Source of the DNA: Bolinopsis microptera
Taxonomy: Eukaryota; Ctenophora; Tentaculata; Lobata; Bolinopsidae
DNA length: 64,000 nucleotides
Assembly: GCF_026151205.1 (NCBI RefSeq)
Contig: NC_087072.1
Location: 14,608,169-14,672,168 of the forward strand
Direction: 5' to 3'
Part shown: one piece after another, positions 2,889 through 55,639 of the stretch
Layout of the letters: the number at the start of each line of letters is the position of its first letter
Numbering within the stretch: the stretch's first letter is position 1
The notes under the pieces: generated by a model
What the model saw: only the letters and a program-made list of their open reading frames with translations
What the model was told of the DNA's origin: nothing
The model's database searches: none
Translations under genes and position numbers: made by a program

Positions 2889-2952
2889 ATTGAATGATTA
2901 TAGCATTGGGCACAGACTTCAACTGATGACATTGTTTTAATTTATGACCATA
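2889..2952 (+). ncRNA. C/D-box-like snoRNA, possible 28S guide, copy A (host intron 11)
   Basis: Relaxed C box ATGATTA 2894-2900, a CTGATGA D'/C'-like block, and ATGA at 2944-2947 in the D position, 66 nt before the acceptor at 3013. The segment AGCATTGGGCA, followed by ACAGA or CAGA, can pair over 11 nt (one G-U) with conserved 28S UGCCCAGUGCU. Boxes depart from consensus, so function is inferred from position, conservation of three copies and complementarity. Confidence 0.55.
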
Positions 2953-3149
2953 TTAATGTTACATCTTCTCTCTGTATAACGAGTCTTCCTTGTTTAACAT
3001 AAAACCCTTTCAGAACCCAAGAAGGAGGTGAGATTTGACATGTCGACGTAGTATAGACACCTGTAGTGTGCCACTTGCGATAGTTGCCGAATTTAGGTAA
3101 GTTACATTTATAGTCTGGTTTCAATTTTAGACTCTGTTTGAGCAATTTA

Positions 3150-3213
3150 ATAAATGATGAGATAGTCCCGCTTGCCCTCCAGCTGATTTCATTGATGAAG
3201 TGGTTCTGATATT
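3150..3213 (+). ncRNA. C/D-box snoRNA guiding 18S, copy C (host intron 12)
   Basis: C box ATGATGA 3154-3160, D CTGA 3206-3209, identical guide CTTGCCCTCCA before D'. The D box ends 67 nt before the acceptor at 3276. Third copy of the 18S helix-18 guide in this host. Confidence 0.85.
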
Positions 3214-3390
3214 TCACCCTGAATAAGTGGAATTTACTGTCCCCTTGCTTTAGTTAAACAAACTTCAATGTCACAGGTGTTCTGAGTGCAAGTCTGATTC
3301 GAACCAAGCTGATCACTGGACTTCAGCTCTACTGTACTGCCTCACAATGATGTAAGTCACTTTTGGTTTTCATTGCTGGATCGAGACTTA

Positions 3391-3454
3391 ATCGAATGAT
3401 TACAGCATTGGGCACAGACTACTTCTGATGACATTGTTTTAATTTATGACAACA
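3391..3454 (+). ncRNA. C/D-box-like snoRNA, possible 28S guide, copy B (host intron 13)
   Basis: C-like ATGATTA 3396-3402 and D-like ATGA 3446-3449, with the same AGCATTGGGCA segment as the copy at 2889. ATGA ends 69 nt before the acceptor at 3518. Confidence 0.55.
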
Positions 3455-3651
3455 TTTGTGATGAATTCTTTCCTATAATTCAAAAGGTCGTCCTTTGTAT
3501 AACAAAAAACCGCCTCAGAACCCGAAAAGAAGCCTGCACATAGTTCAGAGAAACACCGATATTTATTTTCTTGTGGCCTAACGATCATTACCAATACTGG
3601 CCTGGGTAAGTTAAAACTTGAGATACAAGTAATTGTAATCACAAATTTCTT

Positions 3652-3715
3652 ATTGAATGATTATAGCATTGGGCACAGACTTCATCTGATGACATTGTTT
3701 TAATTTATGACCATA
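3652..3715 (+). ncRNA. C/D-box-like snoRNA, possible 28S guide, copy C (host intron 14)
   Basis: C-like ATGATTA 3657-3663 and D-like ATGA 3707-3710; same candidate guide as the copies at 2889 and 3391. ATGA ends 68 nt before the acceptor at 3778. Confidence 0.55.
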
Positions 3716-3887
3716 TTTTTGTATTATTCTTGAATATGATTTAAGTGTCTTCTTCGTTTAACATAGCATCCTGATCAGGACCCAAAAGTGTGGCATTGAA
3801 AACCTGATGTCGATTCTTTGACTAGACTGTCGTGGTCTTCAGTACTACTTGGTGAGTTTTAATCGATGTAATATAGTCTGGGTGAAA

Positions 3888-11000: not shown

Positions 11001-13336
11001 AAAATGATTTTACAATTTTATTCGGGATTTTAACTTCCAGTACCCCAATATGGTTTCATACCATCATCAATTGACTGACTAATTGGTTTCTGGGAAAAAA
11101 TTTCATCTTATCTGTCAAATTTGTGTTCAGAAAATTTCATATTTGAAAATGGGACAGACTTTTGAAAATACAACTTTTCGTTTTGTTAAGCTTTCTGCTG
11201 TGGGCTTCTTCCGACCGAAATCAAACTTCCAGCACCTCTATCGTGTCATATGCCACCTATAGTTGACTTACTAATTGGTTGCAGGTGAGAAATTCAGTCA
11301 AAACTGTAAAATTTCGGTCCTGGAAATTTCATCTTCAAAAACTGAAAATGGGACAGAGATTTGGACAAAATGATTTTACAATTTTATTCGGGATTTTAAC
11401 TTCCAGTACCCCAATATGGTTTCATACCATCATCAATTGACTGACTAATTGGTTTCTGGGAAAAAATTTCATCTTATCTGTCAAATTTGTGTTCAGAAAA
11501 TTTCATATTTGAAAATGGGACAGACTTTTGAAAATACAACTTTTCGTTTTGTTAAGCTTTCTGCTGTGGGCTTCTTCCGACCGAAATCAAACTTCCAGCA
11601 CCTCTATCGTGTCATATGCCACCTATAGTTGACTTACTAATTGGTTGCAGGTGAGAAATTCAGTCAAAACTGTAAAATTTCGGTCCTGGAAATTTCATCT
11701 TCAAAAACTGAAAATGGGACAGAGATTTGGACAAAATGATTTTACAATTTTATTCGGGATTTTAACTTCCAGTACCCCAATATGGTTTCATACCATCATC
11801 AATTGACTGACTAATTGGTTTCTGGGAAAAAATTTCATCTTATCTGTCAAATTTGTGTTCAGAAAATTTCATATTTGAAAATGGGACAGACTTTTGAAAA
11901 TACAACTTTTCGTTTTGTTAAGCTTTCTGCTGTGGGCTTCTTCCGACCGAAATCAAACTTCCAGCACCTCTATCGTGTCATATGCCACCTATAGTTGACT
12001 TACTAATTGGTTGCAGGTGAGAAATTCAGTCAAAACTGTAAAATTTCGGTCCTGGAAATTTCATCTTCAAAAACTGAAAATGGGACAGAGATTGGGACAA
12101 AATGATTTTACAATTTTATTCGGGATTTTGACTTCCAGTACCCCAATTTGGTTTCATACCATCATCAATTGACTGACTAATTGGTTTCTGGGAAAAAATT
12201 TCATCTAATCTGTCAAATTTGTGTTCAGAAAATTTCATATTTGAAAATGGGACAGACTTTTGAAAATACAACTTTTCGTTTTGTTAAGCTTTCTGCTGTG
12301 GGCTTCCTCCGACCGAAATCAAACTTCCAGCACCTCTATCGTGTCATATGCCACCTATAGTTGACTTACTAATTGGTTGCAGGTGAGAAATTCAGTCAAA
12401 ACTGTAAAATTTCGGTCCTGGAAATTTCATCTTCAAAAACTGAAAATGGGACAGAGATTGGGACAATATGATTTTACAATTTTATTCGGGATTTTGACTT
12501 CCAGTACCCCAATTTGGTTTCATACCATCATCAATTGACTGACTAATTGGTTTCTGGGAAAAAATTTCATCTAATCTGTCAAATTTGTGTTCAGAAAATT
12601 TCATATTTGAAAATGGGACAGACTTTTGAAAATACAACTTTTCGTTTTGTTAAGCTTTCTGCTGTGGGCTTCCTCCGACCGAAATCAAACTTCCAGCACC
12701 TCTATCGTGTCATATGCCACCTATAGTTGACTTACTAATTGGTTGCAGGTGAGAAATTCAGTCAAAACTGTAAAATTTCGGTCCTGGAAATTTCATCTTC
12801 AAAAACTGAAAATGGAACAGAGATTGGGACAATATGATTTTACAATTTTATTCGGGATTTTGACTTCCAGTACCCCAATTTGGTTTCATACCATCATCAA
12901 TTGACTGACTAATTGGTTTCTGGGAAAAAATTTCATATAATCTGTCAAATTTGTGTTCAGAAAATTTCATATTTGAAAATGGGACAGACTTTTGAAAATA
13001 CAACTTTTCGTTTTGTTAAGCTTTCTGCTGTGGGCTTCTTCCGACCGAAATCAAACTTCCAGCACCTCTATCGTGTCATATGCCACCTATAGTTGACTTA
13101 CTAATTAGTTGCAGGTGAGAAATTCAGTCAAAACTGTAAAATTTCGGTCCTGGAAATTTCATCTTCAAAAACTGAAAATGGGACAGAGATTGGGACAATA
13201 TGATTTTACAATTTTATTCGGGATTTTGACTTCCAGTACCCCAATTTGGTTTCATACCATCATCAATTAACTGACTAATTGGTTTCTGGGCAAAAATTTC
13301 ATCTACGTAATCTGTCAAATTTGTGTTCAGAAATAT
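5015..13336. repeat. 366-bp dimeric satellite array, about 22.7 copies
   Basis: Units start at 5041 and recur every 366 bp without drift (5407, 5773, 6139 ... 13093); the last is partial. Each unit splits into two related halves, about 174 bp (5041-5214) and 192 bp (5215-5406), which share TTGACT-ACTAATTGGTT starts, a TTTCATnTT / AAAATGGGACAGA core and CAAACTTCCAG-type ends, so the unit is a diverged dimer. Copies 2-19 are almost identical. Copies 1 and 4 share two private variants (TGTCTGGG; CGATTTG), and the last four copies (from 11995) are diverged (GATTGGGAC, TTTTGACTTCC, CATCTAATC). No coding potential is evident. Confidence 0.97.
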
Positions 13337-19300: not shown

Positions 19301-22104
19301 TAATCAAGATAAAGCTTCCAGGGCTTAGAAGTCCGAGAGCAACGTAACCTTCAGAACTACAACATGAAATTGAAATGAGACATGCTGTTTTCTCAATCGG
19401 GACAAAGAGTAAAATGAAACCTGCGCGACAGCACGCCTCTGCGAGATATGTGGCGTGCAGAGAAATGAGTACATGGCAGTAAGTAGCACTGAGTAAGTAG
19501 CACTGAGTAAGTAGCACTTCCATTTCACGCCTATTTCACTTCAATTTGTCCGGATGTTGGGCCCTCTATTACACCACACTACACAGAAAAGAGGCTATTT
19601 GACCCTCATTAACAATGACATGTAATCTTATTAACCTGGCCTCTATAGGGTTATCCGTAATGATAGCTATCACGCCTGGAAAAGTAGGACAAGGTCAAAT
19701 ATCACGCCGGATAGTGGAAACGTATAACTATATATTTGTCTCATCAGTCGATTGAAAAGTTGGTTGAAACTGAAAGGTCGGTTGAAACTTGAGACGATTA
19801 GTATATAATGAAGACGGAAATGAACAATATCTGATAACATTGGTATTCAATAACTGGTGACAAACGATCTCGAGTTTGTTCTAGGTTTTCTTGAAAAAAT
19901 ACGAATTAGAAATCTCTATCTAGCATAATATCAAGGAAAGTTGAACAAACAGACTACGAGACTATCACGCCGGATATACACCTAGTTCCTTGTATTCGTG
20001 GCATTAACAAGGTCCTCACTAAAAATAATCTCGTAAAAATAGAAACTCGGGACATATGATTAATTTATATGCTCTCAAGTCCTATAAACCTAAAATCAAA
20101 TCAAAACATTAACCCATTTGTCCAGCCTTAACCAATTCAGGTACTTGAATCCTAGAGGCTATAAGCCCATCACCTGGACCACGCAGCCATCCAATGTGTA
20201 GTGGAATCTTAAAGAAAAACCTACAAAATATCACGTACAACACAGAAATAACAAAATATCACATAAATGATCACAATATATCACATTGGAGTAAGAGGTG
20301 GGACTAAGTGCGGGTCCGGTGTTACACAGACGCGCGCCATCTGGATAACAAGGTAACTCATCACCTGGCCCAGCAGCCTTGTGGTAATAGAGTCAGCAAT
20401 GGGTATTATAACCATATATGATAATACTATTTAAGGTGCTGAGGCATGCTTGGTTGCGCTCGAGCTGTCATAATAGTATCGAAGGGGTATAGGACGCAGC
20501 GGCGGAAGTCACTGCGGCGGTGTACAGTCCGGCGGAGGACGGTACAGCGGAGGTCGGTACGGCGGTAGTTTCCAAAAAGGTTGGACGGTACGGCGGATCA
20601 CATGACACCAACTTTACTTTGGACAGTACGGCAGTACTACTACTAGTACTACTAGAAACTGTACCTATAAGATAGACCTAGCACTGCTAATATAACAACA
20701 ACGTTGCTATGTTGTAACGCACAAATGCAATAACTATGAAAAAGCAAGGCGACACAATTTGAATCATTATATTTCAAATATAATCTTTAGATCATGTAAT
20801 ATTTCACAATCTGGGCTGTCAGGCTCGGGCACTAAATTTTAATTCTATGTAGTTTTGTTCGGATATTAATAATAAAACTTAGTTCGTTAAATGATAATTA
20901 TTTCTTCTAGCAGTTTGACTGTGGGAAGAATTAACGAATTGACAAGAAGGAATAAATAACTAACTTAAGGAATAAATAATTAACTTATTTAATAAGAACA
21001 TATAAAATGCAGCTAATAATCATTCAACTTGAAAACGGCAAGAGCAGATAAATATAATTACATGAGAAGATTGCGACTAGAATACAGACAATATCAAGTT
21101 GTACAGTTAAGAATAAAGACATTGCCCTATTAACAGTGCTTTGTGTTCACTTACGTGTATCGGTATACACATGTACGAAAAGAAAAAAGTGGTGATAGGA
21201 TCTCGAGTTTGTTCTAGAATTCTATAGATAATATTCTCTAAGAATAGCTGTACAATAAAGACCGTACCAACAGTGCCATGTTATCTGTTATAACGCAAAA
21301 ATTCAAGCCAATAATTAAGAAAAAACAAGGAGACACGCCTGAAATGCGGTTAGTATCACAGATTTAATCAAAGTGAACCCTTGGTAACCTGAGTCATACA
21401 AATCAAAGTTTGGTTTATTGTGCTATTTGAAAATTTACAAATTGAATTTTGAACCGTTATCTTTCAAATTTAATTTTGAAGTCATTTATTTTGAAATATT
21501 ATGCTATTTAATATTTACAAATCCCACAATTTGAGCTGTTATCTTTCAAGTTCAATCCTCAAATTATGTTACATGTTAAAATGAGGAAACGTAGCAGACG
21601 TATTTCAGTGTACGCAGTGTAATTCTAGAGAAACAAGCCTTTGTTTAATAAAAATTTGCAAACTTTTAACGGAGTGAAATTTGAGCGTTATAACTTAGAC
21701 CCAAAACTAAATTGAGAAAACTTTTGGCATGAATCCTTCAATTCATTTAGTAACTCTCTTTAATAATTAAAGTGGTCGTGCCGAGGAAGTCAATAAAGTA
21801 TGCGCTCGGTAACTAGAATGCCTGAGCAAAGATCAGTAGTCCAGACTCCAGATATCATAATCTCCCCCAAAGCGTTGTATAAAATCGGTGAGAATAAAGC
21901 AACATTTACCAGGAGGCAGGAGCTGCGGTCACTCTCAACCACTAAGTACGATAGCAATCTGACGAAAAGTATTGCGTTCGCTATCAGACTTCCATTTCAG
22001 ACAGAACAAATGGGAATTATAATGGCTGGCCGCATGATAGGTTCAATCATATTCATATTCAAGTATGGTCAAATTAGTAGTTATGTTTATTGCATATATA
22101 AGTA
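16360..22104. other. Intergenic DNA without a convincing gene
   Basis: Short open stretches only, none with recognisable protein. A 16-bp tandem repeat around AGTAGCACTGAGTA lies at 19482-19516. A GC-rich GGTACGGCGG-type minisatellite lies at about 20483-20620. Upstream exons of the PPP1R3-like gene may lie at the left edge. Confidence 0.5.
20483..20620. repeat. GGCGG-rich minisatellite
   Basis: Imperfect repeats of CGGTACGGCGG and relatives, strikingly GC-rich in an AT-rich region. Confidence 0.6.
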
Positions 22105-22464
22105 GGGCCTGTCATGATATCATGGATCGCTTAGGTTCCACCAGGATCTGGTAGTCCTCATAATTCTGCGGCCTCTATGTATCGTTATCTCGCACAATTC
22201 CGTATAAGACCCTTGTGAGTTTGGCATGTGAAAATTTGCAGCCTTCCAGACATTGATTGGGTTAACGAGGTGTCGTACGTCACCTCAAGATCGGGTGACA
22301 GGGGGCTGACCAGGCCAGAACCCAATTGATTGGGTCTGAGGTAACGTTATTATGAGCCTGAGATCACGTGACTGTGACGTCACCAGAGCTTGTTATCCGT
22401 TTCCCGCTCATTGGACCAGGTGAGCTTGCATGCTTGTGAATGTGGGTGTAAGTACAGCTGTACT

Positions 22465-23083
22465 CAGGGGTGTAGGAATGATTTTCTTCATGGGGGGCCA
22501 AATTCTAAATATTTTTTGGCGCTTCGCGCCAAAGCCTAATTTTCGAGGGTAAGGACGAAAGGAAATTGCAGCATGTGCGGTATCGCGATTTTTCACCTTT
22601 GCCGCGACAAATCGCGATTTTTAAAATCCTGGCCTCACGACAAATCGCGATTTTTTCAGTTCTCCGCGTCAAATTGCGCATTTTCCTTTAAATCTGAGGA
22701 CTAAATTCGCGTATTTTCCTTCAAATCTGTGGGCCAAATATTACGTTTTCTATAATTAGTAATAGTACATGAGACCAATCAGTATCACATCCACAACCTT
22801 CCGAATGTAGGTACGGACTTCGAAAACCGAAAAAAAATATTTTTGGCTCATAATGATCAGGGTAGCATGAAACATGTACAAAAGTACATAGTTTCCAAGA
22901 TAACCTTGAAAATTTTTGACTTAGAAAATTTTTGACTTCGGGGGAAAAATGTTTTTCCCCAAAAATTTTTAGAAACCTAAATTAAAAAGTTGGCCCTTTT
23001 TGGCCCCTGACCAGATTTCATGGGGGGGGGGGGGGGGGGGGGGGCGATGGCCCCCCTGCCCCCCCCCGCTTCCTACACCCCTG
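22465..23083. mobile_element. hAT-type MITE with 8-bp target duplication
   Basis: Terminal inverted repeats CAGGGGTGTAGGAA / TTCCTACACCCCTG bound 619 bp, flanked on both sides by the 8-bp duplication GCTGTACT (22457-22464, 23084-23091). The 8-bp duplication and CAG..CTG ends are hAT hallmarks. The other arm of the host element shows the uninterrupted site. The interior repeats CAAATCGCGATTTTT-like motifs and holds a run of 23 G (22022+1000, i.e. 23022-23044). No coding region. Confidence 0.92.
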
Positions 23084-23345
23084 GCTGTACTGTAGTTTAT
23101 ATCTAATCTAATTACCCCCTATTATAGAAACCGTAAATTTATTTCCTGACAGAAAGCTAGAAATTTACCAAAATATCGACATTGTTATAAAATTATTTTG
23201 ATGAACATTCCTTAGCTAAAATTGCACGAGAAATCGATTAAACTTGGTTTCAGAGCTCAACAATGCTTCCTTATGCCTTAAAATCCATGTTTTATCGATA
23301 CAATCAATATTATGATCCTGTTTATTAATTAGTAACAGGTAACAA

Positions 23346-24409
23346 TTTTATTTACTGATCCTCTTATTTGTAAAGCTATCCTCAATACATTATGCAGTTA
23401 CAAAGTGTGATAACCGTTTCAACAGGGGTCGAATTCACAAAAATAACGTAAACCATTGATTTAAAGCAACCGCCTCTCCTCAAGGACAAAAGAAAATTGC
23501 GATTATTTGGGCCAAAAATCGCGGCGCCGCAACAAGTCAAACTAGGCAAAATCGCGGCGAATTTGCGGTGAAAGATAATGTATTTGCAGAGCTAAGTTAG
23601 ATGTCATAAATTAGTTAACTAGCTTGTTAGTATAGATAGATTCGGGAGCGACAGACTCGTCAGGCAAAACAATAGCATCTATATTAATAATCTTAAGTGT
23701 TAAGATCTAAACAGACTCTTTTTCATGATGTTGTTACACGAATTATGAATTAGGGATGCACTGGTTCATAGGATTAGGGTAATGAAAATTACTAGTTGGT
23801 TTGTGTGTAGATAGTAGGTCTGTGCGGCTTCTAGTGATAATAGAAAATTATTATAATTATTACGTAAAAATTATTATAAAAGTTATGTTTATATAGAAAT
23901 AAGAAGAGTAACTTACATATTGAGGCACTTTCCTAATTGTACCTATCGAGAATGACTCGGACCGAAACTTTTCTAAATCGAAATTATTTTCAAAGTTTTT
24001 CTGGAAACTACTTTTGTTCATGTTTCAAGCTTTTTCGGTCCGTACCCACATTCGGAAGGCTGTGGATGTGATTAGTTCCATATAATTATAAAGAACGTGA
24101 TATTTGGCCCTCGGATTTAAAGAAGAATGCGCAAATTTGGTCCTCAGAGAACTGGAATAATCGCAATTTGTCGCGAAGATCTGTTTGTCTCGGCAAGCGT
24201 CAAAAATCGCGCTTTGTCGCAGGGAATGGGAAAATTCGCGATTCTGCAAGTGACGCGATTTCCTTTTGACCTTGCCGCTCCTGTCTCTTGATTGCTTATG
24301 ATATGATGATCAGGAACACATGACGTATCATCACGACGATTATTGGTCACTCGAAATCGACCCGTTATTGTTAAGAATGCAATGTTGGTGTGATGGTTGT
24401 TTCTGCGTA
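23346..24409. repeat. Spacer of the TIR element with inverted hAT-family fragments
   Basis: The stretch at about 24005-24290 (TTCGGTCCGTACCCACATTC, CAATTTGTCGCG, TCGCGATTCTG) is an inverted relative of the interior of the hAT MITE at 22465, and 23480-23575 has similar CGCGG-rich pieces. This suggests an older, eroded copy in opposite orientation. Confidence 0.6.
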
Positions 24410-25024
24410 TTTTTTACCTGTTACTAATTAATCAACAGGATCATAAATCATAATATTGATTGTATCGATAAAACATGGATTTTAAGGCATAAGGAAGCAT
24501 TGTTGAGCTCTGAAACCAAGTTTAATCGATTTCTCGTGCAATTTTAGGTCAGGAATGTTCATCAAAATAATTTTATAACAATGTCGATATTTTGGTAAAT
24601 TTCTAGCTTTCTGTCAGAAAATAAATTTACGGTTTCTATAATAGGGGGTAATTAGATATAAACTACAGTACAGCTTTACTTACACCTACATTCATAAGCA
24701 TGCAAGCTCACCTGGTCCAATGAGCGGGAAACAGAGAACAAGCTCTGGTGACGTCACAGTCACGTGACCTCAGGCTCATAATAACATTACCTCAGACCCA
24801 ATCAATTGGGTTCTGGCCTGGTCAGCCCCCTGTCACCCGATCATGAGGTGACGTACGACACCTCGTTAACCCAATCAATGTCTGGAAGGCTGCAAATTTT
24901 CATATGCCAAACTCACAAGGGTCTTACGGAGTTGTGCGAGATAACGATACACAGAGGCCGCAGAATTATGAGGATTACCAGATCCTGGTGGAACCTAAGC
25001 GATCCATGATATCATGACAGGCCC

Positions 25025-26880
25025 TAATAATAATATATAAGTTAAATATATATAAAAGTAAAATAAATAAAGTAAATACAAATAAAATATAAATAAAAGT
25101 AAAATAGGTTATTCTTGAGAATAGCATATCTCAGAGTATTTATGGATCAAAGTTAAGTTGTACAGTAATACGATACAGCTTTAGCTTGCTTCATATCACC
25201 TTATCAAGGAAGGACAAGTTTCAAGAAACGAAGAACTATCTCTGTAATGTTTCTGGGGCGTTACCAGTTCTAGTAATATATTGCATGCTTGAGAATTGAG
25301 CAATGGTAATTTGCGTCACAAAATCAAACTTAATTAAATGTTACATCATTTTCTGCACAACTTTTACATTGAAAACCGTTATCTTCCAAATTTAAGACGC
25401 AGATAAGTTACTAGACCGCAGCGTAATTCTGCACAAAACCATTTTTAAAACAGTGTTAACGGAAACTTGAGTAGCTAACGCGAAAATGAACCCAAATAAA
25501 ATTAAAAGTAACAAATATTTTAATACTTTTGGAATGTGGATTAACTGTTTTTATATATATATGATATAATCTAGAACCATCGCATATTTATAGAAACACC
25601 CTGGATCTGGACAATGAACTTATTATTAATTATACGAATAAAACTGGCATCATAATTTAAAGTGAAGCGTGACACCTCAACTGATCATTGGGGTAGGTAG
25701 GATTATTCTAGAATGTTCATTGACATTATTGAAATTCCTGCTGTTACGAAACATGACCACAGCGTTGGATATCAATATAAAGCTGGTCTCATGACATAAT
25801 GTGGAGCGGGAAATCCCAACCGATCATTGGCCCCGGACTCGTGTAGAAGGTTCAGAACCTTAATTAAAACTCTGGCTAGCTGTAACGAAACAGAGCTGGT
25901 GCTGAACCAGGTGGTACTTTGCAGGCACGTGTAAATAATGGTTATTTTCAGCGGTAAAAGATGATTCGATGACTCGATCGTTGACTTCAGACTTATAGGG
26001 CCCTAACTGAATAAGGCCCTAGATAGGGCCTTAACTCGATCGAAAGGCGGATTTATGTACTTAGATTCATTTTACCTTGATGAGACTTCAAAATATAAAA
26101 TAAAAAATGAATCTAGGAAGGCGATTTGCCTTGACGGACAAATCGATCAATAGTGTGATGCTTCTCAACATAAAATAGCACGTACCATGGCCATGAAAAA
26201 GTAAAATGATCATTGACTTTCATACTCAAGCACGACAAAATTGACGATTGTATCATGCTAACAATATTAAACATTCTATATTTGGCTGCATGCAAAATAA
26301 ACAGATACGGAAATGGAGTCTCGAGAGAGATCGAAACAAATAATGCTTGAAATAGGAGCTACTAGCCAGGTAAGTTTAACTTTTCTACCATTCTATAGAG
26401 GATAATTTGTTGTAACAGCGATGAAGGTATTATCACAGTGTGACAGAAATAAAACATTCCAACACGTACAAGGCGTCAAATAACAGGTAAAATAAAGGAC
26501 AGACATCGGGATATTATAAATTTATGATCACGAGTTCTGTTTTGGTGAGATATTTCAGTAATGGTATTACAAAAATGTAATAGTATTACAAAAACGTAAA
26601 AAGATAACAAAAACATTCCCAACAAATCTCACGTACCTACAATATAACTTTATGGAAGAGAGGCCTACGGAAAATTTGCTAAATTTTGAGTACCTGTTAT
26701 ATATTATGAGAAGCATTTAAAAAGCATTTAAAATAAAAAGGAATAATTATAAAATAGCATTCAGAATGGATAAAGATAAAAGCAGCCAAAGGCTGCAACG
26801 ATTTTTCAAATCGTGATAGGAGTAGAATTCACTGAATTCTAGAGCAGAACTTTTAGAACACGATCTGTAAATAATGAATA
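25025..26880. other. Intergenic DNA
   Basis: No gene recognised. A perfect three-unit heat-shock element occurs at 25706-25718. Confidence 0.5.
25706..25718. promoter_or_regulatory. Heat-shock-element-like site
   Basis: TTCTAGAATGTTC fits TTCnnGAAnnTTC exactly. There is no gene nearby, so function is unproven. Confidence 0.3.
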
Positions 26881-32520: not shown

Positions 32521-34650
32521 TATGTCCCCTTAATTTGCTCCAGAACTTTTCGGATTGATTTTTTTTTTGTAATTTTTAAAGTGGCTTCACCTTTATTTAA
32601 AAATTCAACCGTTTATTTATAAAAAAATGTCTTTATTTCAACAATATTCCCGTTCTGACTTCTAGCTAGAGCTTTAACTACAGATAAAAAGCTGTCTTAA
32701 TACGAAAATTCAAAATTGTGTGTTGCCGTCCTGGTCGATCCTTGTTTGCAATGCCAAGTACAAAGTTAACACGAACATAGCTCACTGTACGTGTAAAACC
32801 ACGAACATAGCACTGTACGTGTAAAACAGTCCCACGAACCAGAGCACAACCCATTGCTCTGGAGTCTGGAGCACTTATCTTAGCATAATAGCTATAACAA
32901 GACCGTTTAGTAATATTGTGAAATTTAGTAACCGACTGACCATGTCTGATGGCGCTTCCTCCAGTCTAGCAAACAGAATATTCTTCAGAATTGAGAAATT
33001 ATATGCAGATTGCAATCCAACGGAATAATATGCGATCTAAAGAAATGTTCTAGAAGGCGCCAATGGCTGGTCATGGTGTTCAAACCACTTACTACGGGCG
33101 TTGGTTTGCCAGGAAAATTAGTGCATTATTAAGCTGAACATCTCCAAAATTTCCAATGCTCAAATTGCGAGTACTAATAGTTTGGTAGCTACTCTTACAG
33201 AACTACCAGGTTAGTAATTATAATACATTAAATTTAAATGACTAGAAGATAGCGAATAAGTTTTAACTTAAAATAAGTACAAGCTACTGTACATATGAAC
33301 TTAATAGAAGGAAATAATATTGTCTTTTCGCAATAACATCCGTTAAAAAGTTAGCTTTGTATATCTATTATCTAGTACTTTGTTAATCTAACTTAACAAG
33401 CCTTGAACAAAATGCACACGAAGGTGTCAGAATTTAAGGATTGCACGTTCAAAGAACTAAACTTCACTGCTACTCAACGCTAGCTTAGCACTTCCGCGTG
33501 TTTTAAAAGCATTCCTAGCATATTTCACAACAGAGGGTGTGTCAGGAGGTGTATTCAGTATCTAAAAGAGGTGTTGGCCTATCTACTCACATCGCGGATA
33601 GAAGCCGGGAGAACTAATGCGGAGAAGGCTTGTCTGCAGATCTGTTCGGGATTACCAGAGCTCAAGGGGCCGTCAAGCTCAACAGGAGAGTAAACAATGT
33701 GGCGAGGATATTATGGTTGGCAGTCTTTGAATTTTGGTCGAGTGTGAGGTGGTTCTTCAATACCTCACAAAATTCGGTTTAAATGTTGATAATGGGTTTA
33801 ATTTTTAACAGGTTACATCGTCTAGTAAAGCTGTTATATATTTAAAATGAAATTACGTTATTTTCCAATGATAAGCTAACAAATTCTTGGAAATAAGGAC
33901 CGAAGATTCATGCGAATCCCGCCATCTTTTATGAGCTTACAACTTTATAAGAATTAAGATGCTACAGAGCATATATATTATATAATATAATAAACTTGTA
34001 GTCAAACCTATACAGGATAATGGTTAGGACATTATGGATATTTTCTGGGAACTAATTTGCCACGACCATTTCTGTTCAGGAATGTGTTGTCCCAAACACA
34101 ACCACGGAGAATTAAAGGTAGATCTGATGGGCACAACTAGCTAGAGCATAAAATGACTGTTACCTTTCCAATAATCAGCTAACAAATTCTTGGAAATATG
34201 GACAAAACGTGTATTATGTGTAGTATGCGAATCCCGTCACCTTTTACAAGCTTACAAGGAGCTACAATCTACATACCATATAAGGAGCTAGATATCATAC
34301 TATAAATCACATACTTTTGAAAACGAGACCTGTATTCTCATTCAAAACTGAGAAACATCATCCAGACAAAATTATAGAACTAAACATTCGCTTGTGAGGC
34401 GTGGGTCATAGAGGCTAACATTCACGTAATCAGATAAACCAATAGAGCAACTACACCGTCTCTCTTCGTAACCTAATATCAATTAACCCAATCACTAACG
34501 GCTGTATAGCTGCTCCTGGAATGATTTCTAAATGAACGAAGAGATCAACATATTATTATGCTAAGAAAATAGCCGATCTATAATTTAAAGCTTTCTCTTT
34601 AATATACGGTTTCCGCTGGAAGCTTCTGACATACTTATAAGCAAATATAT
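32521..34650. other. Intergenic DNA
   Basis: No gene recognised. There is a small tandem repeat of CACGAACATAGCWCACTGTACGTG type at about 32770-32835. A related pair of segments around CAATAATCAGCTAACAAATT lies near 33866 and 34166. Confidence 0.4.
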
Positions 34651-34803
34651 GGTACGGCACCAGCCAGTCGGGCACGTGGTCACCGAGTGACGCAGTCACG
34701 AGGTATAGTCAGCTGATAGATAACGTGACCAATATTAGCCAGTGAGAAGGGCTGGATTTCACGCTTAAGCAAAATTAGATTCACAGCTCACAATTTGCTT
34801 GAC

Positions 34804-34890
34804 GCAAGCTTCTTCTGTGACATCGATACTTACCACTTACATTTATTCCGTACTGTACTCAATAAATGTAACTCACGTGACAAAAGAGCG
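34804..34890 (+). repeat. Left 87-bp direct repeat with lox-like palindrome
   Basis: It contains TTACATTTATT (34837-34847), a 13-nt spacer, and AATAAATGTAA (34861-34871): a perfect 11-bp inverted pair. It is matched by the repeat at 36677 in the same orientation. Confidence 0.9.
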
Positions 34891-35031
34891 GCCACTTGAA
34901 AAATGAATTATCATCTCAAACGTTTTAAATTAGTGGAGTAGATCGGAACTCGGAAGGAACTACTTTCATAAATTGTAACAGGAAATGGTGACCAACAATT
35001 TGAAATTAAATCGCACTGTTTTGTTTACATA

Positions 35032-36612
35032 ATGACGTCTCGTATTGTTTTGATAGAAAAAGATGAACTTGAAGATCTCAGGAAAGGTCGAATACCGGAA
35101 AATACACGAAAATCGACTCAATTCGCGGTCAATTTGTACAACACCTGGAGAGAGGAGCACGCCCGTTTGGGGCATAGGTATGCCCCGCTGAACTGTGGTG
35201 TTCCTTCAATGATAAACACTATGGTGGCAAAGTTCATAGTTGAGATAAGAAGAAAGGACGGACACCACTATGCACCTGAAAGCTTAATAAGCATTTTTCA
35301 TGGAATAAACAGATACTTGGTGGAGCAGGATGCTACCATGAACCTAAGCCTTGCTCCAGAGTTTCTGACTTGCCGCCAGAAAGTGGACGGCTACATCAAA
35401 CATCTGGAGAAGGAGGGTCCACCTCACAAAAAGAAGAAGGCACCTGCTGTAGACCCTGGTGTACATAGGGAACTTTGGCTGAGTGGACAGCTAGGACCTG
35501 CTACGCCAATATCGCTAGTAGACGGTCTACTGTGGCTTTGTGGCTGGTTGTTCGCTCTTCGCGGTAAAGAAGAGTTGCGAAACGCCAGATATTACAATTT
35601 TCAGTTCGAAGATTGTGTATTGAAAGAAGGTGGACCAATAATGAACAAGGTCACATATACAGAAAATAAATCAAAAGCTAATCAAGGAGGTCTGCACAAG
35701 AAGAATGACCCACGTCCTGTACAACATTACGAAAACCCAAGTAATGAGAATTCATTCACGAATTTATTCAAGTTTTATTTATCAAAGCTACCTGATAAAG
35801 CAGATTTGAATAAAGCACTGTTTTTTACTCCCAAGAAGCTAGAGAATCCAATTCATGATGATGTGTGGTACACAAATACTCCAATAGGTATCAATACATT
35901 AAACAAAACAGTGAAACGAATAACTGAAGATGATATGGCGACTAATCATTCCTTAAGAACAAGTACCATCAACACACTGTTTGATGCAGGTGTAACGGAA
36001 ACTGATATCATTAAGAGGACCAGGCACAGGAGCGTAGCAACATTAGCAACTTATCGTAGAGATAGTGTGGATGCTCTTACTACAGTTTCCGAGGTTCTGT
36101 CGGCTCCAAGTGAGTCACTTAAAACATCAGACGTGACTGATGGGGTAGCTACAACAAGTAAAGCGTCTGAAATGCTCCCAGGTCCAAGTTCAACAACGAC
36201 TGCTCATTCTACACATATCATAGAGACACCAAAAACATCACGCATGAATACTAAGAGAAAGGTGGATAAGTGCGTGTCCCCAAAAGAAGCAAAGAAATCT
36301 AAATTGGATAAAGAACTCGCCGAAGCACTTATTTGGCTAAAAACATCTGACGGTTCCCAACTAGTTACAGACTTTGACGACTTTGAAGTAGAACAAGTAC
36401 AATCAAGATGGACGGAAACGGTTTCAATAGATACAAACACTCTGATTACTTTGCCCAACCAGATAGGACACGTCGAAATAAGTATGAGATTTGACTGCAA
36501 CAATATGTCTATTGGAAAGGTGCCAAATAAAATTGAAGACAATGATAAAAATGTAGGAACAGAGCTGTCTTTTCCCGCGAGAGCGGAAGTTCATTTCACT
36601 GTGAAGTATTAA
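35032..36612 (+). CDS. Tyrosine recombinase, Crypton / KIAA1958-like (DUF3504)
   Basis: A single 526-residue open frame from an ATG at 35032, without introns. The N-terminal ~130 residues resemble the core-binding region of these recombinases (TRKSTQFAVNLYNTWREEH). A basic stretch HKKKK follows at 132-136. The catalytic part has Arg177 in LFALRGKEELR, HSLR at 306-309, His332 in RTRHRS and the nucleophile Tyr341 in LATYRR, so the R..HxxR..H..Y set is complete. The last ~180 residues are Ser/Thr-rich, then acidic, as in host-domesticated and element-borne members. Family members catalyse strand exchange through a 3'-phosphotyrosine. The intact frame and flanking direct repeats suggest recent mobility; a domesticated gene is the alternative. 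Confidence 0.85.
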   Translation: MTSRIVLIEKDELEDLRKGRIPENTRKSTQFAVNLYNTWREEHARLGHRYAPLNCGVPSMINTMVAKFIVEIRRKDGHHYAPESLISIFHGINRYLVEQDATMNLSLAPEFLTCRQKVDGYIKHLEKEGPPHKKKKAPAVDPGVHRELWLSGQLGPATPISLVDGLLWLCGWLFALRGKEELRNARYYNFQFEDCVLKEGGPIMNKVTYTENKSKANQGGLHKKNDPRPVQHYENPSNENSFTNLFKFYLSKLPDKADLNKALFFTPKKLENPIHDDVWYTNTPIGINTLNKTVKRITEDDMATNHSLRTSTINTLFDAGVTETDIIKRTRHRSVATLATYRRDSVDALTTVSEVLSAPSESLKTSDVTDGVATTSKASEMLPGPSSTTTAHSTHIIETPKTSRMNTKRKVDKCVSPKEAKKSKLDKELAEALIWLKTSDGSQLVTDFDDFEVEQVQSRWTETVSIDTNTLITLPNQIGHVEISMRFDCNNMSIGKVPNKIEDNDKNVGTELSFPARAEVHFTVKY

Positions 36613-36676
36613 AATATCAATTTGCATGCCAAACTATTTCATTCTTTGTAACATAATATCTTACTCCTTTTAGAAT

Positions 36677-36763
36677 GCAAGCGTCTTCTTTGACATCGAT
36701 ATTGATCACTTACATTTATTCCGTACTGTACTCAATAAATGTAACTCACGTGACAAAAGTGCG
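36677..36763 (+). repeat. Right 87-bp direct repeat with lox-like palindrome
   Basis: TTACATTTATT (36710-36720), a 13-nt spacer identical to the left copy, and AATAAATGTAA (36734-36744). Starts 65 bp after the recombinase stop codon. Confidence 0.9.
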
Positions 36764-36979
36764 CTGTCCAATAGCAGTTAGGTAAGCTGTCATGTGGCAA
36801 CCACGAGAGTAACACGATGGTAGCAGCATGGCAGGATGCTCATTGGACAATGAACACTTTGTGTCGGAAGTAGATACAGTTTTTTGCCAATTTGACACTG
36901 TTAAAATGCACCAAATTTCAAAATTTTGGTCGGAAAATGTTCCCAAGACTGTTGTCTTGTGCCGTACCATAAGCAATTT

Positions 36980-37040
36980 ATAGAACTCCTGACAAAACTC
37001 GTGCCTTCGGCACTCGTTTCGTCAGGAGTTCTATAACTTA
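36980..37040. repeat. Perfect-arm hairpin (palindromic repeat)
   Basis: TATAGAACTCCTGAC is inverted as GTCAGGAGTTCTATA, and an inner CGTGCC/GGCAC stem makes a cruciform of about 60 bp, immediately outside the recombinase element. It looks like a palindromic interspersed repeat. Confidence 0.85.
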
Positions 37041-40000
37041 CCTTATTACATAAATATGCGAGCACAACATGTAATTGCATGGGCAGGAAAGTTATACGAA
37101 CATGTTGTAATATTCACTGGCTACAGTCTCTCAATAACAAATACTAAGTGATTATTCCACGAAGCTTGCATGTCTCGGACTGAATGAGGTCAGGAAACTG
37201 CAAATTTAAGACGGGGCCTTCTCACCCAACTGCAAAAATCATTAAGTTTCAACATTCCAAACTTTGCAACATTTCTGAACATTTGAAACTGAACAGTTTA
37301 ATCTTAACTTTCTTGTAGGAATACAAATTTCTGGATTGTTACCAAACGGACAGTAATTTTAAATTGCGAAGCTCCGAACTTCTGAACACTGTAATTTCAT
37401 GAAGCTATCTCCGCAGCTGGCCTGTGTACCTGACTCCTGCCCAAATCATACCTACACCTGGCCTATTCTGGCCTCTCGACATTTCTAGTTTCAATTTTGT
37501 GGTGGTCGGTTACCATGGTCACGAATTGTTTGTAACCAAGGTGTCATGTTCTGAGTCTTGAGGAGCGGTTGCATGTGCCGTGATCGCATTACAGTACAGG
37601 TGCCCAGTTCCTAATCTCTTCGGAATGTAATCTTATTTCAACAGGACTCAATCATCAAAACTAACCAGCCTTTTTTCTAACTGTGTTTGATCCATGACGA
37701 GTTTTACTTGCTCTCAAGTTACCTCTGCTTACACAAAATTGAATCATCGTTAGTGTTGAATAATCTTGATTGAACAAGCAAATATTTTGGGAACATATCA
37801 AAAATTCTGTCGAATAATCCACTTAATGCATTCAATGCTCTGTTGCCGTAGCAACGTGTGACATGACCTGATATTACTATTCGGGCATGATGTAAGACCA
37901 CCGTTACTTGTTTGCGTTATTTGACTACAAAACTTTCTCACCCTCGTCTCGTCTTCTTGTCGCGTCTTTTGAGTTTGATAAATTGTGATTGTTTACCAGC
38001 GAGCCTACGTGTTTTGCCTGTGTTTAAGAGTTTTGCCTGTGTTTTGCGAGGAATGTCACATGCCGGCCCCCTGTGTGCTTCTCCAAAAACGAGTCAAAGC
38101 CGCATTGCTAACAGCTTGTTAGCAATTACTTTTCAGGAAGCATCGCTTTTTTTCGATTTTCTGAAACCGTTTTGTTTTTCTCGGAAGAAACGATTATGTT
38201 TCGATAAATGCGCTCGGTGAATGTTTCGTACTATACTTTTTAGTAAAGCATACCGGTTTCAGAGTGATTCTAAGGAACAAGTAATATAAGATGTGTGAAT
38301 TCCTAGGCACAACAATTAAACGTCACAACTAAGCGTCACTATTATGCAAGTCAATATCAATTACACGCCGACTGTCAATTTGAATTAGAAGTGGAGGGTA
38401 TACTGTGTTACCTTGACATCAATAATCAACCATACATGCTTTTCGAACAATTTACCTACTATCCTAAAAAATGCATGGAACGTGTCGTACAGTGCCACAT
38501 TACTTTTAATCTAACCGTCTGTCAAGAAAAACTAATAAATTTTTATTGCTTGCTAAAGTTTTCTTGATTATCATCACGAGCCAACTCCTCAGCAAAATAT
38601 CGCTCTACAACCAATCATGAAGCAGCATTTATAATGGCAGGAGATATTTTGTCACATGTTCATTGTTGAGCATGAGGCTTGCTTCTATCAAATTACCGAT
38701 TATAGTATGCTGACTCTCTTTCCTCTTGACATGATATCTGATTGAGTTCCAGGGACGTTTTGAGATGATGCTCTTAAATCTGGCCGTTGACGACTGCACA
38801 ATTACATAATGTTTTTTTGAATGTTGCAAGTGCGATTTCAAAGTGCAGATATTGTGACGTTGGCAGGTTGGCTGCTCTGAAGGAAGGGTGGGACCGGATA
38901 TTTTCATAGCTTTATCAGAGCTTATTAAATAGTTTAAAGTGCTTTTTATAAAGTTTAAAGTGCTAAACATTTGTAAGCTTCTTGATTCGTGTTTTCGATA
39001 TAGAATATATTCGCTTGCTTTGATACTATTTAAAAATACCATTTATTCCTAAATAACGCTTTTTATTTTTGAATGCTATTTATTTTAAATGTCACCTATG
39101 TCACCATACCACTTTTTCTTATCATACTCGGCCATTTTTATTTGCTTTTCTCACTTAAATTCCGATTTTACATTGGGCCAAAGGAAATAGGAAACTTAAG
39201 ATATTACTTAAGCAGCTTAAGTTAAATAGCTTACTCAGTGACAGTCATTCCAATCTAAATCCCATACCACTGATAAGTGATAAGATAAGAATTTACATCT
39301 CACGTTAAACAAAGTAACTAACGTATCTCATATCAGGGAAGATAAATGGAGTATTACACGACAAGTCACAACTTTTACGATAAATTGTACGACACTGCAG
39401 GAAAACCTCATTTTGCGGGACATCTTCCCGGGTTAGTGTTATAAACTTAGCGATGGTAATATTACAAAACTGAGATTGTATTGGTTATGAGAGAAACATT
39501 TATAATTGTAGACTAAAATGGCTTCTCATTGGTAAAAGTTGAACGACAAAAACATGAATGCCCAGCAAGCACCACACAAACAATAAGCACGTTAACAATT
39601 ACATGTCGCATAGCAGTACTACAAAGCAGTAAAATTAAGACAACAGAATAAAGAAGCAATGCACACTATGCTAGTGTATAATAAAAGAAACGTACGACCT
39701 TACCTAATCGTACTCAGTTACCACATGGTAAAATGGCTCTACAAATCTAAGAATAATAACACACATACAGTAGTTTAAAATATAGTATAAGAATAATAAG
39801 TAATAAACAAATTGCGAGGACCATGTAGAAAATTTGGTTATTAGTTACGATTGTAAATCTTGCGTTATTCAATATTAGGTGGAACTGCACTAAAATATCT
39901 GAATATATAAAAGGGCCTGCCAGTGTGCACAAACGTGTTATTGTGCAATCTCCGGTCACCTGACATATACGTCAATACTTGACATCAGTTATTACTTCGC

Positions 40001-52287: not shown

Positions 52288-53692
52288 CTAGGCTGTTGTT
52301 TCACTATCCAATAAACATTTCCATAGATGCTTAGTGACCTCAGCTTTGAAAACACTAGTAGACACAATCTGTCTTACCTGTAAAGGGAGTCCATTCCACA
52401 GTATATGAGTTCTGTAGAAAAATGACTTTGCCAGTGGGCTATTTGAGGTACATAAGGTGTGTGAATTCTGACTTAACTTAGGTAAAATTGATGACACAAT
52501 AGACAGACTGTCGAGGTGGCAACGTCTTAGTCGAGAAGTGCCCTGATATAAAGTGAGATAGTGAGGCAGCGATACAGGAATTAAATTGTTCAGAACTTTG
52601 TGGAAAAAAATAAGATCATTCAAGTCAAACTTTTGAGACAAAGGGAGAATGTCGACAAGCTTGCACTTTTTGACATATTGCTCAGGTGGATAACTGCGGC
52701 CCTCTTCAGACAGAATCCATTTAATAGCTCTCTTTTGGAGACTTTCTAATTTATCACTAAGTGATTTATTACAAGGGCGCCAGATTATGGAACAATTTTC
52801 GAATTGGCTACGAACTAGGGAGAGGTAAAGCGCCCGGCGACGTTTCAGATCAATGACAATATGGCCATCTCTTCTGACCATACCAAGTTGTTGGCAGGCC
52901 TTAGTATAAATTCTGTCGCACTGACTATTCCAACTTAGCTTAGGAGTAACATCGACTCCAAGATCTTTTTCTAACTCTACATACACAAGAGGAGAGCCAT
53001 CAAGATTATATGCGAATGGAGGAGATAAAGATGGTTTTCCTGAAACAATAAGCACTTTACATTTTGCTGGATGGAATCGCATTTTGTTTCTAAGTGCCCA
53101 GTCAGAGAGATAGTCTATATCCATTTGTAAATTGGTATTATCAGAAGATGAATTTATTTTACGCCAGATTTTTGTATCATCGGCATACAAAACAATATCA
53201 GTATTATCCGAAAGGCCAAGAGGAATATCATTGATAAACAATACAAAAAGTAAGGGACCAAGGATAGAGCCCTGGGGGACACCAGAATTAACTGAGAGGG
53301 TAGATGACATCTCATTACCAATAACCACTCTTTGGTAACGGCCTTGAAGGTAATTGGTAAGAAATTTGAGAAGTGTACCATCAATGTTATATAAGGTCTT
53401 TAGCTTATGAAGAAGGATATCATGATTTACAGAATCAAATGCCTTAGCAAAATCAAAATACACAACATGATTGATAATGTTTTCGTTAAGAGACAATGCC
53501 AGGCTATCACAAAAATCAACCATATTGGTTGTGCATGACTTGTGCTCTAGAAAACCATGCTGCCTGGGATCAAGAAGGGTACTTGTCAAAGAAAGCAGTT
53601 TACGTTTAACAATGCGCTCAAAAACTTTCATGACTAAACAAGTAAGGGATATTGGTCTATAGTTTTCAACCTCACTTTTCTTACCAATCAAC
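52288..53692 (-). pseudogene. LINE reverse transcriptase domain (5' broken)
   Basis: The meaningful frame starts near LIGKKSEVENYRPISLTC, inside RT block 1-2, and runs through YFDFAKAFDSVNH, GVPQGSILGPLLF and the catalytic YADDTKIW, then the thumb and C-terminal tail to a stop at 52288. The N-terminal ~90 residues normally found between the linker and VENYRPISL are missing: the upstream frame stops at YDTDISYVNDVDW and this frame begins only at IGKK, so a deletion plus frameshift separates them. Residues upstream of this point in the same frame are not LINE-like. Confidence 0.9.
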
Positions 53693-53699
53693 ATCATTG

Positions 53700-54120
53700 A
53701 CATAGGAGATGTCAGTGTCATAAAGTGAAGGATCCGAAAACTGGTTATAAAAGAAAGAATTGAAAAGTTCAGCTTGATCTTTGGGATTGAACCGAAGCTG
53801 TCCAGAATAACTAACACAATTAGGAATACGGCAGGAGTTAGATTTATACTTAACATGTGACCAAAACTTCTTAGTTATAAGCGCTGGATCATCACTATTA
53901 AAAAGATTATCTCTTATTTTGGCTGATGAGAGCCTCTTAAAATCTTTACGGCTAGTAACAAACTTTAACTCATCAGAAATAGAACCAGAAATTTTAAATT
54001 TAGCTCTGAGTCTATCTTTTTTACGGCATGAAGAAAAAAGTTCACTATCGAACCACGGGGGTTGGAACTCTGATTTAATAATTACTTTAGGAATATGTAT
54101 ATCAACTAAATTCATAATGC
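53700..54120 (-). pseudogene. LINE linker region between endonuclease and RT
   Basis: A frame reading PPWFDSELFSSCRKKDRLRA to FNSFFYNQFSDPSLYDTD is typical of the segment between endonuclease and RT in CR1/L2 elements. It is separated from the endonuclease part by the 257-bp insertion and from the RT by a frameshift and deletion. Confidence 0.85.
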
Positions 54121-54130
54121 AGTCTTTAAC

Positions 54131-54387
54131 TTTTTTTTTAACGGAAAAGAATATTCAAACAATATACACATAATATAGCAATGGCCAATTGGCTGACAAG
54201 GTCATGGCCTGAACAAACAATTTTTTTAAAATAGTCAAGTGATGCTAAAGCAGAGCACAAATGTGTAATAAGTTAATAGATTAAAAAACTGATTCATGTG
54301 ATGCATTCGCAGAGCACAGATAAAAATACTGATTCAATGATTAAAATTATAGCTGTGAGTGTCAATAAATTACTGTGTCGTAAAAAA
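54131..54387 (-). mobile_element. SINE-like insert inside the LINE, 10-bp target duplication
   Basis: Flanked by AGTCTTTAAC on both sides (54121-54130, 54388-54397). On the minus strand it ends in a run of nine A, so it inserted by target-primed reverse transcription in the LINE's orientation. It interrupts the codons between KLVKD and CIMNLVD. Its 3' part shares TATATTGTTTGAATA with sequence at 51230 and 55667. Confidence 0.85.
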
Positions 54388-54388
54388 A

Positions 54389-55639
54389 GTCTTTAACTAA
54401 CTTCCAAGACGAATCAGGATCTAGGCATTCTAGGACTTGCCAATTAATCGAGCATAATTCACGATTTATCATGTCCCAGTTTGCTTTCTTAAAATTATAG
54501 ATTTTACGTTTAGGAGTTTTCTTACGGGAAAAGGAGCTTTTAATTGAAAAAGTGACAGGAAAATGATCAGATTTGCACACGGAATGAGGATCACAGACAT
54601 TCAAGTTATCGATTGTGTTATCATAATTACTGAGAAGAATGTCTAATGTATTACCACTTTTATGGGTGGGTGATGTGATCAACTGGGAGAGAGAAAGATC
54701 ACTGAAAGAATCTATGAAGGATTGCTCAATAGGTACGGTACTGGATGAAGATAGCCAATCTGTATGGGGGAGATTAAAATCACCAATAACATAGATTTTA
54801 GGGGGATTCTTTTTGGAAACTAGCTTGCGAATATAACTAACTATGACATCATGATTAGGTAACCCAAGAGTTCCTACTCTATAACAAGTACAGATTACAA
54901 TACTCTCTTTGTTAGGAAAAGAAATTTTAACGGCAAGCATTTCTGCACCTAGGCTAACTGGTAGTCGGGTTGTAGTGGCGTCGAGATCAGACCGAACAGC
55001 CAAAAAAACACCACCTCCATTTTCCGTAAACTTTTTAGGGTTATTAGGATCTTGAGGATGAGTCTTTCTCGTGCGGTCATTGCGGAAGATTTCATATTGA
55101 GAAGAAGGAAAGATTTCGTTGCTAGAAATAGATTTTTTGAGCCAAGTCTCATTTAGGGCAATTATGTCAGGCTGCTCTATGTTAGCAAAGGATTGAAGTT
55201 CGGAAATCTTATTACCATCAAGAAGGGGATGGGAGGAGCTTAGGTTACTGAAAGGAATGAGACCTTGGACATTTTGGTAGAGTACAGATAGGGAGTTGGG
55301 ACCTGGATTAAGCATAGAAGGATTAACAAGAGTTATCAAAAGAAAGTTAAGAGAGAAAACCCAAAGAATGAATAAAGAGACTAGACGCCTGAGGCGGCTG
55401 GAATACTTGACTCTATTCATCTTACCAGGGAGAAGAACATTTCTTATAAACCATGAGGAGATAATTACAAAGAAAAGTTTGATGTGGGAGCAAGCAAGAA
55501 ATGGTATAAGATAACGTGGGCTGTCAAGGAGTAGAGAGGAATGAATATTAGAATCTAGGGGGAATACGGTGTTCATGGACCTAGTCGTGGAGAGAAGAAT
55601 TGGGAGAAATATTGAGTTGGCTGAATTGTGAGTCACCAA
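54389..55639 (-). pseudogene. LINE apurinic-like endonuclease domain
   Basis: A hydrophobic N-terminal ~100 residues, then LSVLYQNVQGL, DIIALNETWL, NGGGVFLAVRSD, YVIGDFNLPHTDW, NTLDILLSN and SDHFPVTF, the ordered motifs of the exonuclease-endonuclease-phosphatase domain of non-LTR elements. Catalytic E, D, N and H positions look intact. The frame continues into the insert and stops at 54362, so the polyprotein is cut here. Confidence 0.9.

Follow-up and report, generated by a model that had tools for sequence, protein, structure and literature searches.

A 2396-bp element of Bolinopsis microptera, very probably a CryptonA-like DNA transposon, with an internal inverted copy of its own end junction

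A tyrosine recombinase gene in the genome of the ctenophore Bolinopsis microptera is flanked by two direct repeats, each containing the same palindrome. This raises the question of which DNA the recombinase moves: the gene, cut out between the palindromes, or a larger unit with ends of its own. The window, i.e., the whole stretch of 64,000 nucleotides analysed, corresponds to C1:14608169-14672168 of a genome of 264.65 Mb in 232 contigs. An earlier sequence-only reading of this DNA took the palindromes for crossover sites. The features of the locus are as follows (window coordinates).

34647 to 37042, plus strand: the complete Crypton element of 2396 bp, starting with the core ATATGG and ending with CTTACC, delimited by ends common to copies with differing flanks and by the empty site of a related copy.
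34647 to 34652, plus strand: left 6-nt crossover core, ATATGG here and TTATGG in most of the 16 copies compared.
34648 to 34795, plus strand: conserved left end, present across the genome both in copies with the gene and in gene-less ones (at least 45 matches to 34648-34803 in the own genome).
34804 to 34890, plus strand: 5' 87-bp repeat, secondary and subfamily-specific by repeat and copy comparison.
34837 to 34871, no strand assigned: 5' 35-nt palindrome with 11-bp arms, from repeat and palindrome searches.
35032 to 36612, plus strand: open reading frame of a Crypton-type tyrosine recombinase with DUF3504, 526 aa, uninterrupted.
36677 to 36763, plus strand: 3' 87-bp repeat, where the palindrome was probably placed ancestrally, as judged from repeat and copy comparison.
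36710 to 36744, no strand assigned: 3' 35-nt palindrome with AATAAA on both strands, from palindrome searches.
36953 to 37005, minus strand: internal complementary region, an inverted copy of the circle junction (score of 66, compared with shuffles).
36975 to 37039, plus strand: terminal hairpin formed by the right half of the internal junction copy and the right end (z -9.51 for 36940-37045).
37009 to 37042, plus strand: right end, ...GTTCTATAACTTACC, by alignment of ends across copies.
37043 to 37048, plus strand: 6-nt core that comes from the target and adjoins the right end (TTATTA in the window), identified by end alignments and by the empty site of the related copy.

The gene is intact and its product is a Crypton-like recombinase, as had been proposed. 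Among Pfam families the protein matches DUF3504 (E 9.4e-22) and QRICH1 (E 1.8e-7); the Phage_integrase match is below the cut-off of that family (E 0.019). R177, H306xxR309, H332 and Y341 are all present, and they are likewise kept in the full-length relative P0001, the nearest of five proteins found (52% identity, 99% query cover). The R-H-R-Y residues together with DUF3504 are the expected signature of animal Cryptons. The coding capacity is that of a Crypton as well: the recombinase is the sole coding-strand ORF of at least 80 aa in 34647-37042, with no reverse transcriptase or RNase H, and the opposite strand carries one ORF of 112 aa. The predicted structure of the protein has a mean pLDDT of 42.7 and is left out of the argument.

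Several other features of the window may be listed here. At 5021-13333 a 366-bp unit is repeated in tandem (22.7 copies, 99% matches). Large nested inverted repeats lie at 22094-25036, where 22094-22464 pairs with 24667-25036 (95%) and a second nested pair is formed by 23084-23345 and 24411-24674 (94%), with the inner arms abutting on the right side. On the minus strand, ORFs at 52288-55639 resemble parts of a non-LTR retrotransposon (endonuclease and reverse transcriptase), judging by the look of the translation alone. Rfam gave 0 matches in the 64-kb window.

To find the ends of the mobile unit we compared copies from the same genome. Searches with the left and right outer parts returned at least 45 matches (best 40 of 61 candidates scored) and at least 42 matches (best 40 of 64 candidates scored), respectively. 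The 87-bp repeat gave 14 matches, 49 stretches matched the protein, and the palindrome is present without mismatch at 10 places. The 68 fetched loci were assembled into 42 regions for the comparison. Similarity among copies at other loci begins at (N)TATGG (34647/34648) and runs to the end of CTTACC (37042); most of the copies compared, which have differing flanks, start at or near NTTATGG and end with CTTACC. In the window this end lies 71 bp past an inverted repeat that had earlier been used as the end. The boundaries 34651-36968 given at that time trace this inner inverted repeat and are wrong, because the copies stay alike out to 37042.

An insertion could be read directly in one case. The joined flanks of 16 copies were used as queries for empty sites, which gave 878 candidates (best 40 scored). 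All of the matches listed fall on the flanks of one copy, C2:2.954M, which is the single source of the empty-site evidence for this family. This non-autonomous copy is inserted within an abundant repeat. Five of the six fetched copies of the target repeat read ACATTGTC-GTATGA-AAGT, and the sixth has ATATGA. The occupied site reads ACATTGTC-TTATGG-TACGG on the left and TTACC-GTATGA-AAGT on the right. At this site insertion exchanges a 6-nt core: the core of the element stays on the left and that of the target on the right, with TATG on both sides of the inserted copy. The flanking TATG and the swap of cores at the outer ends thus fit a tyrosine recombinase acting on those ends. Terminal direct repeats of 4-6 bp, as expected for a Crypton, are represented by TATG in this copy and by TTATAA in a second lineage described below. 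A Crypton would be expected to have neither terminal inverted repeats nor long direct repeats. Here long terminal repeats are absent, and no inverted repeat of at least 14 nt is listed between the two outer ends, but both ends have an inverted copy inside the element, and one subfamily has the 87-bp direct repeats internally.

The inner copy is an unexpected part of the element. Positions 36953-36971 mirror the left end and 36975-37005 mirror the right end, and when the right end is placed directly before the left end, the reverse complement of this junction aligns without gaps to the whole of 36953-37005. The score of this alignment is 66, compared with a mean of 18.1 (sd 2.1, maximum 28) in 500 shuffles; the left half scores 28, which equals the shuffle maximum, and the right half 42. 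As a harder control we used 1500 overlapping, and hence non-independent, 2.4-kb segments of the window. A score of at least 53 was reached by 43 of the 1500 through other inner inverted repeats, which is more often than in shuffles. When the match had to cross the joint with 8 nt to either side and score at least 40, 3 of the 1500 segments remained, two of them inside the inverted repeat at 22-25 kb.

The inner copy is common but not universal in the family. Of the 18 copies in which both ends could be recognised, 14 reach a score above 30; both halves, at 20 or more each, persist in 11, one half alone in three, and four have no recognisable internal copy. The terminal hairpin is collapsed in three further copies (C8:8.70M, C3:8.22M, C8:17.89M), and part of the internal-copy region is missing from C1:22.2M and C5:9.98M. 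A 243-bp copy, C13:11.36M, consists of little beyond the ends and the internal copy, which is present. In a folding calculation for short single-stranded DNA constructs (left end, 12 A, right part) the two ends pair with the internal copy, each with one half of it, and abut one another.

The same arrangement recurs in other recombinase lineages of this genome. DUF3504 matches number 14, and nine of them belong to three lineages, the window family being the first. The loci L075, L076, L089, L091 and L092 were looked over for repeats and ends; no ends were defined there and they are outside the lineage count. Intron-like sequence suggests that L075 is a host gene. The protein of lineage 2 (C12:5.80M, L073 from position 1075) is 28% identical to the window recombinase, and the termini are TTATAAACCCC and ...TATGTGTG. 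Its internal copy, at 3282-3332 of L073, matches its own junction with a score of 58 (shuffle maximum 29; halves 37 and 30). In lineage 3 (L077, L090) the protein is 26% identical to that of the window and 46% to that of lineage 2. The junction copies of L077 and L090, two of the three loci of this lineage (L078 was left out), score 53 and 58 against shuffle maxima of 27 and 28, with halves of 42/25 and 44/20, so that the right half in L090 scores only 20. Both lineages thus share the internal-copy arrangement of the window family and have different termini. Because lineages 2 and 3 are related (46% identity), we count about two independent instances, not three.

Some further observations concern these lineages. 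All three have hairpins close to the right end whose tip resembles CTCGTGC...GCACTCG (window 36975-37039; L073 3370-3412; L077 around 3300). The recombinases of L073 (lineage 2) and L077 (lineage 3) read NLSLR and NLSLK where the window protein reads NHSLR, i.e., the HxxR motif lacks its first histidine there. In L078, an 889-bp direct repeat (5-893 and 2901-3788, 99% identical) surrounds the lineage 3 recombinase gene.

Lineage 2 also informs on the way of insertion. Its elements enter TTATAA with 6-nt direct repeats, as read from one empty site: a copy is inserted at TTATAA within an inverted copy of itself, where the empty site is readable. L084 is a head-to-tail dimer sharing one TTATAA, so an end-to-end junction is present in the genome. 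Such a dimer is expected when a circle enters an end, and it is an indirect trace of a circular intermediate.

Lineage 2 includes a young non-autonomous family, about 940 bp long (L079-L088, L099-L103), whose right part gave 236 candidates (best 40 scored). Ten lineage 2 copies keep the internal copy, but they were retrieved by a query that contained it. Five copies were chosen by the left end alone, all of the T variant defined below; the right end falls within the fetched stretch in three of them, and the internal copy is present in 3/3. The 33-nt left-end pattern has 101 exact matches; at one position, 78 of the 100 listed carry A, 22 carry T and none C or G, and the internal copy matches T there. 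All eight A-type copies examined (8/8) score as mismatched with the internal copy. The A type (8 copies) looks younger than the T type (7 copies), a suggestion from divergence values that are inflated because the rows for L100-L102 ran into flanks. We considered whether the left end had received sequence from the internal copy; this is unsupported, the T copies looking like the older set. Since the A mismatch persists in the younger-looking set, the ends do not appear to be recopied from the internal copy in each round, a step that a template model of the DIRS kind might predict, and this copy is probably not a template for rewriting them.

Could the internal copy be a functionless leftover, produced when an element inserted into itself or formed an inverted dimer? 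Tandem and self-nested copies do occur (L084, L074), so such by-products arise, and several copies have lost the internal copy or half of it. Against this, lineages with different termini have the internal copy in a similar place and in the same orientation, and its sequence follows the terminal sequence of each. It is retained in the 243-bp C13:11.36M, although this copy may not have moved in that form, and it is present in young lineage 2 copies, part of which were found with a query containing it. We regard a mere leftover as unlikely, though worth keeping in mind.

A second possibility is a derivative of a DIRS1-like element that has lost its reverse transcriptase and moves via RNA with enzymes from elsewhere. 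DIRS1-like elements are described, in the cited part of PMC3266345, as having a 3'-side internal complementary region that is the inverse complement of both ends, with an overlap at the junction. The window element has such a region matching both ends, and it fits the descriptions of DIRS1 (PMC3266345 and PMC8969392, as far as cited here) in place and orientation. However, the recombinase is of the DUF3504 Crypton type, and the coding strand has no other long ORF, whereas the same part of PMC3266345 gives DIRS1-like elements reverse transcriptase/RNase H and methyltransferase ORFs, inverted terminal repeats of 66-316 bp and a size of about 4-6.3 kb. The window element is 2.4 kb long, and its outer ends have no long inverted repeats, none of 14 nt or more being listed. 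The A mismatch that persists at the left end of lineage 2 also counts against such a cycle. A DIRS derivative is therefore very unlikely.

It remains to explain the palindromes. The 87-bp direct repeats around the gene are real, as previously reported: they are 93% identical, all six differences lie outside the 35-nt palindrome, and the palindrome TTACATTTATT-13 nt-AATAAATGTAA has two matches in the window (up to 3 mismatches) compared with 0 in 100 shuffles. The whole 35-nt palindrome, its 13-nt spacer included, occurs unchanged at 10 places in the genome. When two copies with unalike 5' parts are dropped from the 12 aligned, 1 of the 35 palindrome sites is variable among the remaining 10, compared with 13 of the 52 other sites of the repeat; with all 12 copies the numbers are 2/35 and 27/52. 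The P value of 0.006 for this difference is a rough guide only, as the copies are related.

According to the sequence-only reading, the palindromes are lox-like sites between which the recombinase excises the gene as a circle, leaving one repeat behind. The identity of palindrome and spacer at 10 places, their higher conservation than the flanking repeat, and the existence of gene-less copies with one repeat agree with this. Cre/lox and Flp/FRT sites have palindromic arms around a short spacer. The palindromes here are similar, also in their direct orientation. However, spacers of such tyrosine-recombinase sites typically measure 6-8 nt in the relevant part of PMC3212892, compared with 13 nt here, and the junctions of the transposon lie elsewhere.

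The copies themselves argue against excision between the repeats. The window, C7:11.50M, C9:4.86M (gene internally deleted) and C1:22.2M (3' repeat lost) are the four copies with a 5' repeat, and all share an identical junction from it to the following sequence. Nine gene-derived copies keep the sequence behind this junction and have no 5' repeat: C1:3.52M, C7:15.15M, C8:15.008M, C8:15.013M, C3:14.87M, C9:5.63M, C5:13.56M, C12:1.98M and C10:8.995M. Two of these nine, C8:15.008M and C8:15.013M, share flanks and count as one event, and four (C3:14.87M, C9:5.63M, C5:13.56M, C12:1.98M) are weak matches of 69-74% identity. Gene-less occurrences of the repeat exist as well, within the same transposon family. 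The sequence-only reading had itself named gene copies without repeats, and unrelated interspersed repeats, as observations that would speak against it; the former is at least partly what we see, and the latter holds as far as the repeat is found apart from the gene.

The copies with a single repeat (C2:2.95M, C8:8.70M, C3:5.90M, C3:8.22M, C9:8.93M) are not what excision would leave. One-site products of a lox cassette should have the cassette's own flanks, whereas the left linkers of these copies are absent from the gene-bearing copies and partly unlike each other, and several left breakpoints differ. These linkers rule out the solo repeats as excision products. In a related subfamily (C10:8.995M, also C4:1.83M) a longer palindrome stands close to the 3' end and differs from this one in sequence, and the insertion junctions that could be read sit at the outer ends. 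The common ends and the empty site show that 34647-37042 is what moves, and the idea of the palindromes as crossover sites of the recombinase finds no support; we consider it highly improbable.

The 5' repeat was apparently added once, in one young subfamily. Judging from the sequence on both its sides, a single-repeat derivative most likely came to lie in tandem with a full element, and a deletion between them would then have produced the two-repeat form; tandem copies do occur (C3:5.90M, L084). The palindrome may bind something, given its higher conservation than that of the surrounding repeat. Because AATAAA is present on both of its strands, it could as well function in polyadenylation as bind the recombinase. 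The explanation that we prefer leaves the conservation of the palindrome unexplained.

The reading of the element as an ordinary transposon with terminal inverted repeats (TGGTACGGCAC ... GTGCCGTACCA) and the recombinase as a passenger can be dismissed, together with the earlier boundaries: the TA-flanked inverted repeat 34648-34666/36953-36971 exists, but the end alignments show most of the copies compared to be alike beyond it, to CTTACC, and the empty site fits the outer end.

We consider it very probable that the locus is a CryptonA-like DNA transposon of 2396 bp with an end-joining cycle and an internal copy of the junction, in which the 87-bp palindromes are not crossover sites. What is observed are the ends, the exchange of a 6-nt core (read at one empty site), numerous non-autonomous derivatives and the inverted junction copy. 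In the cycle that we propose, the recombinase would join the two ends of the element into a circle, and the circle would insert at NTANNN sites. As folding places the paired ends side by side, the internal copy could, within a single strand, pair with the two ends simultaneously and so bring them end to end; alternatively, it could be a complete docking site for the recombinase. We infer for it a role in joining the ends, perhaps as such a splint or docking site.

Animal Cryptons (CryptonA and CryptonI; Kojima and Jurka 2011) likewise have a single DUF3504-type tyrosine recombinase and non-autonomous derivatives, and the part of that paper cited here (PMC3212892) reports no terminal repeats and mentions no internal junction copy, whereas in the window family the ends, the 6-nt exchange and the junction copy are resolved. 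CryptonS elements share a further detail: their termini are given as TATGG in the same source, as cited, and the window element starts with (N)TATGG. They are described there from oomycetes and a diatom, with terminal direct repeats of 5 or 6 bp, compared with 4 nt (TATG, one empty site) here. In the cited parts of PMC3212892 and PMC8969392 the ends of Cryptons are short direct repeats or none, and an internal complementary region is treated as a mark of DIRS in those of PMC6681497, PMC3266345 and PMC8969392. Within the open-licence literature searched, in the parts cited, no such region is described in any Crypton; subscription reviews and Repbase reports are outside this scope. The suggestion that the direct repeats mark a distinct subclass of Cryptons is unsupported, and what is distinct is the internal copy of the circle junction. 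The novelty lies in this copy; the recombinase and the derivatives belong with known Cryptons.

Little is known about the way in which Cryptons find their ends and join them. In practice, the ends of a Crypton could be located by looking for the inner copy of the junction. For DIRS1 the internal complementary region has been proposed, in the cited part of PMC3266345, to bring the ends together within a retrotransposon cycle. If DNA elements with only a recombinase have such a region, the explanation by a retrotransposon cycle is incomplete, and the region may serve the recombinase and not the reverse transcriptase. We tentatively suggest, as a possibility short of an even chance, that the internal copy is a working part of animal Cryptons that aligns their ends, and that such a Crypton passed it on to DIRS as the internal complementary region, either before the reverse transcriptase was gained or at the time of that gain. 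If so, the internal copy would be a structural trace of the proposed origin of DIRS from Cryptons.
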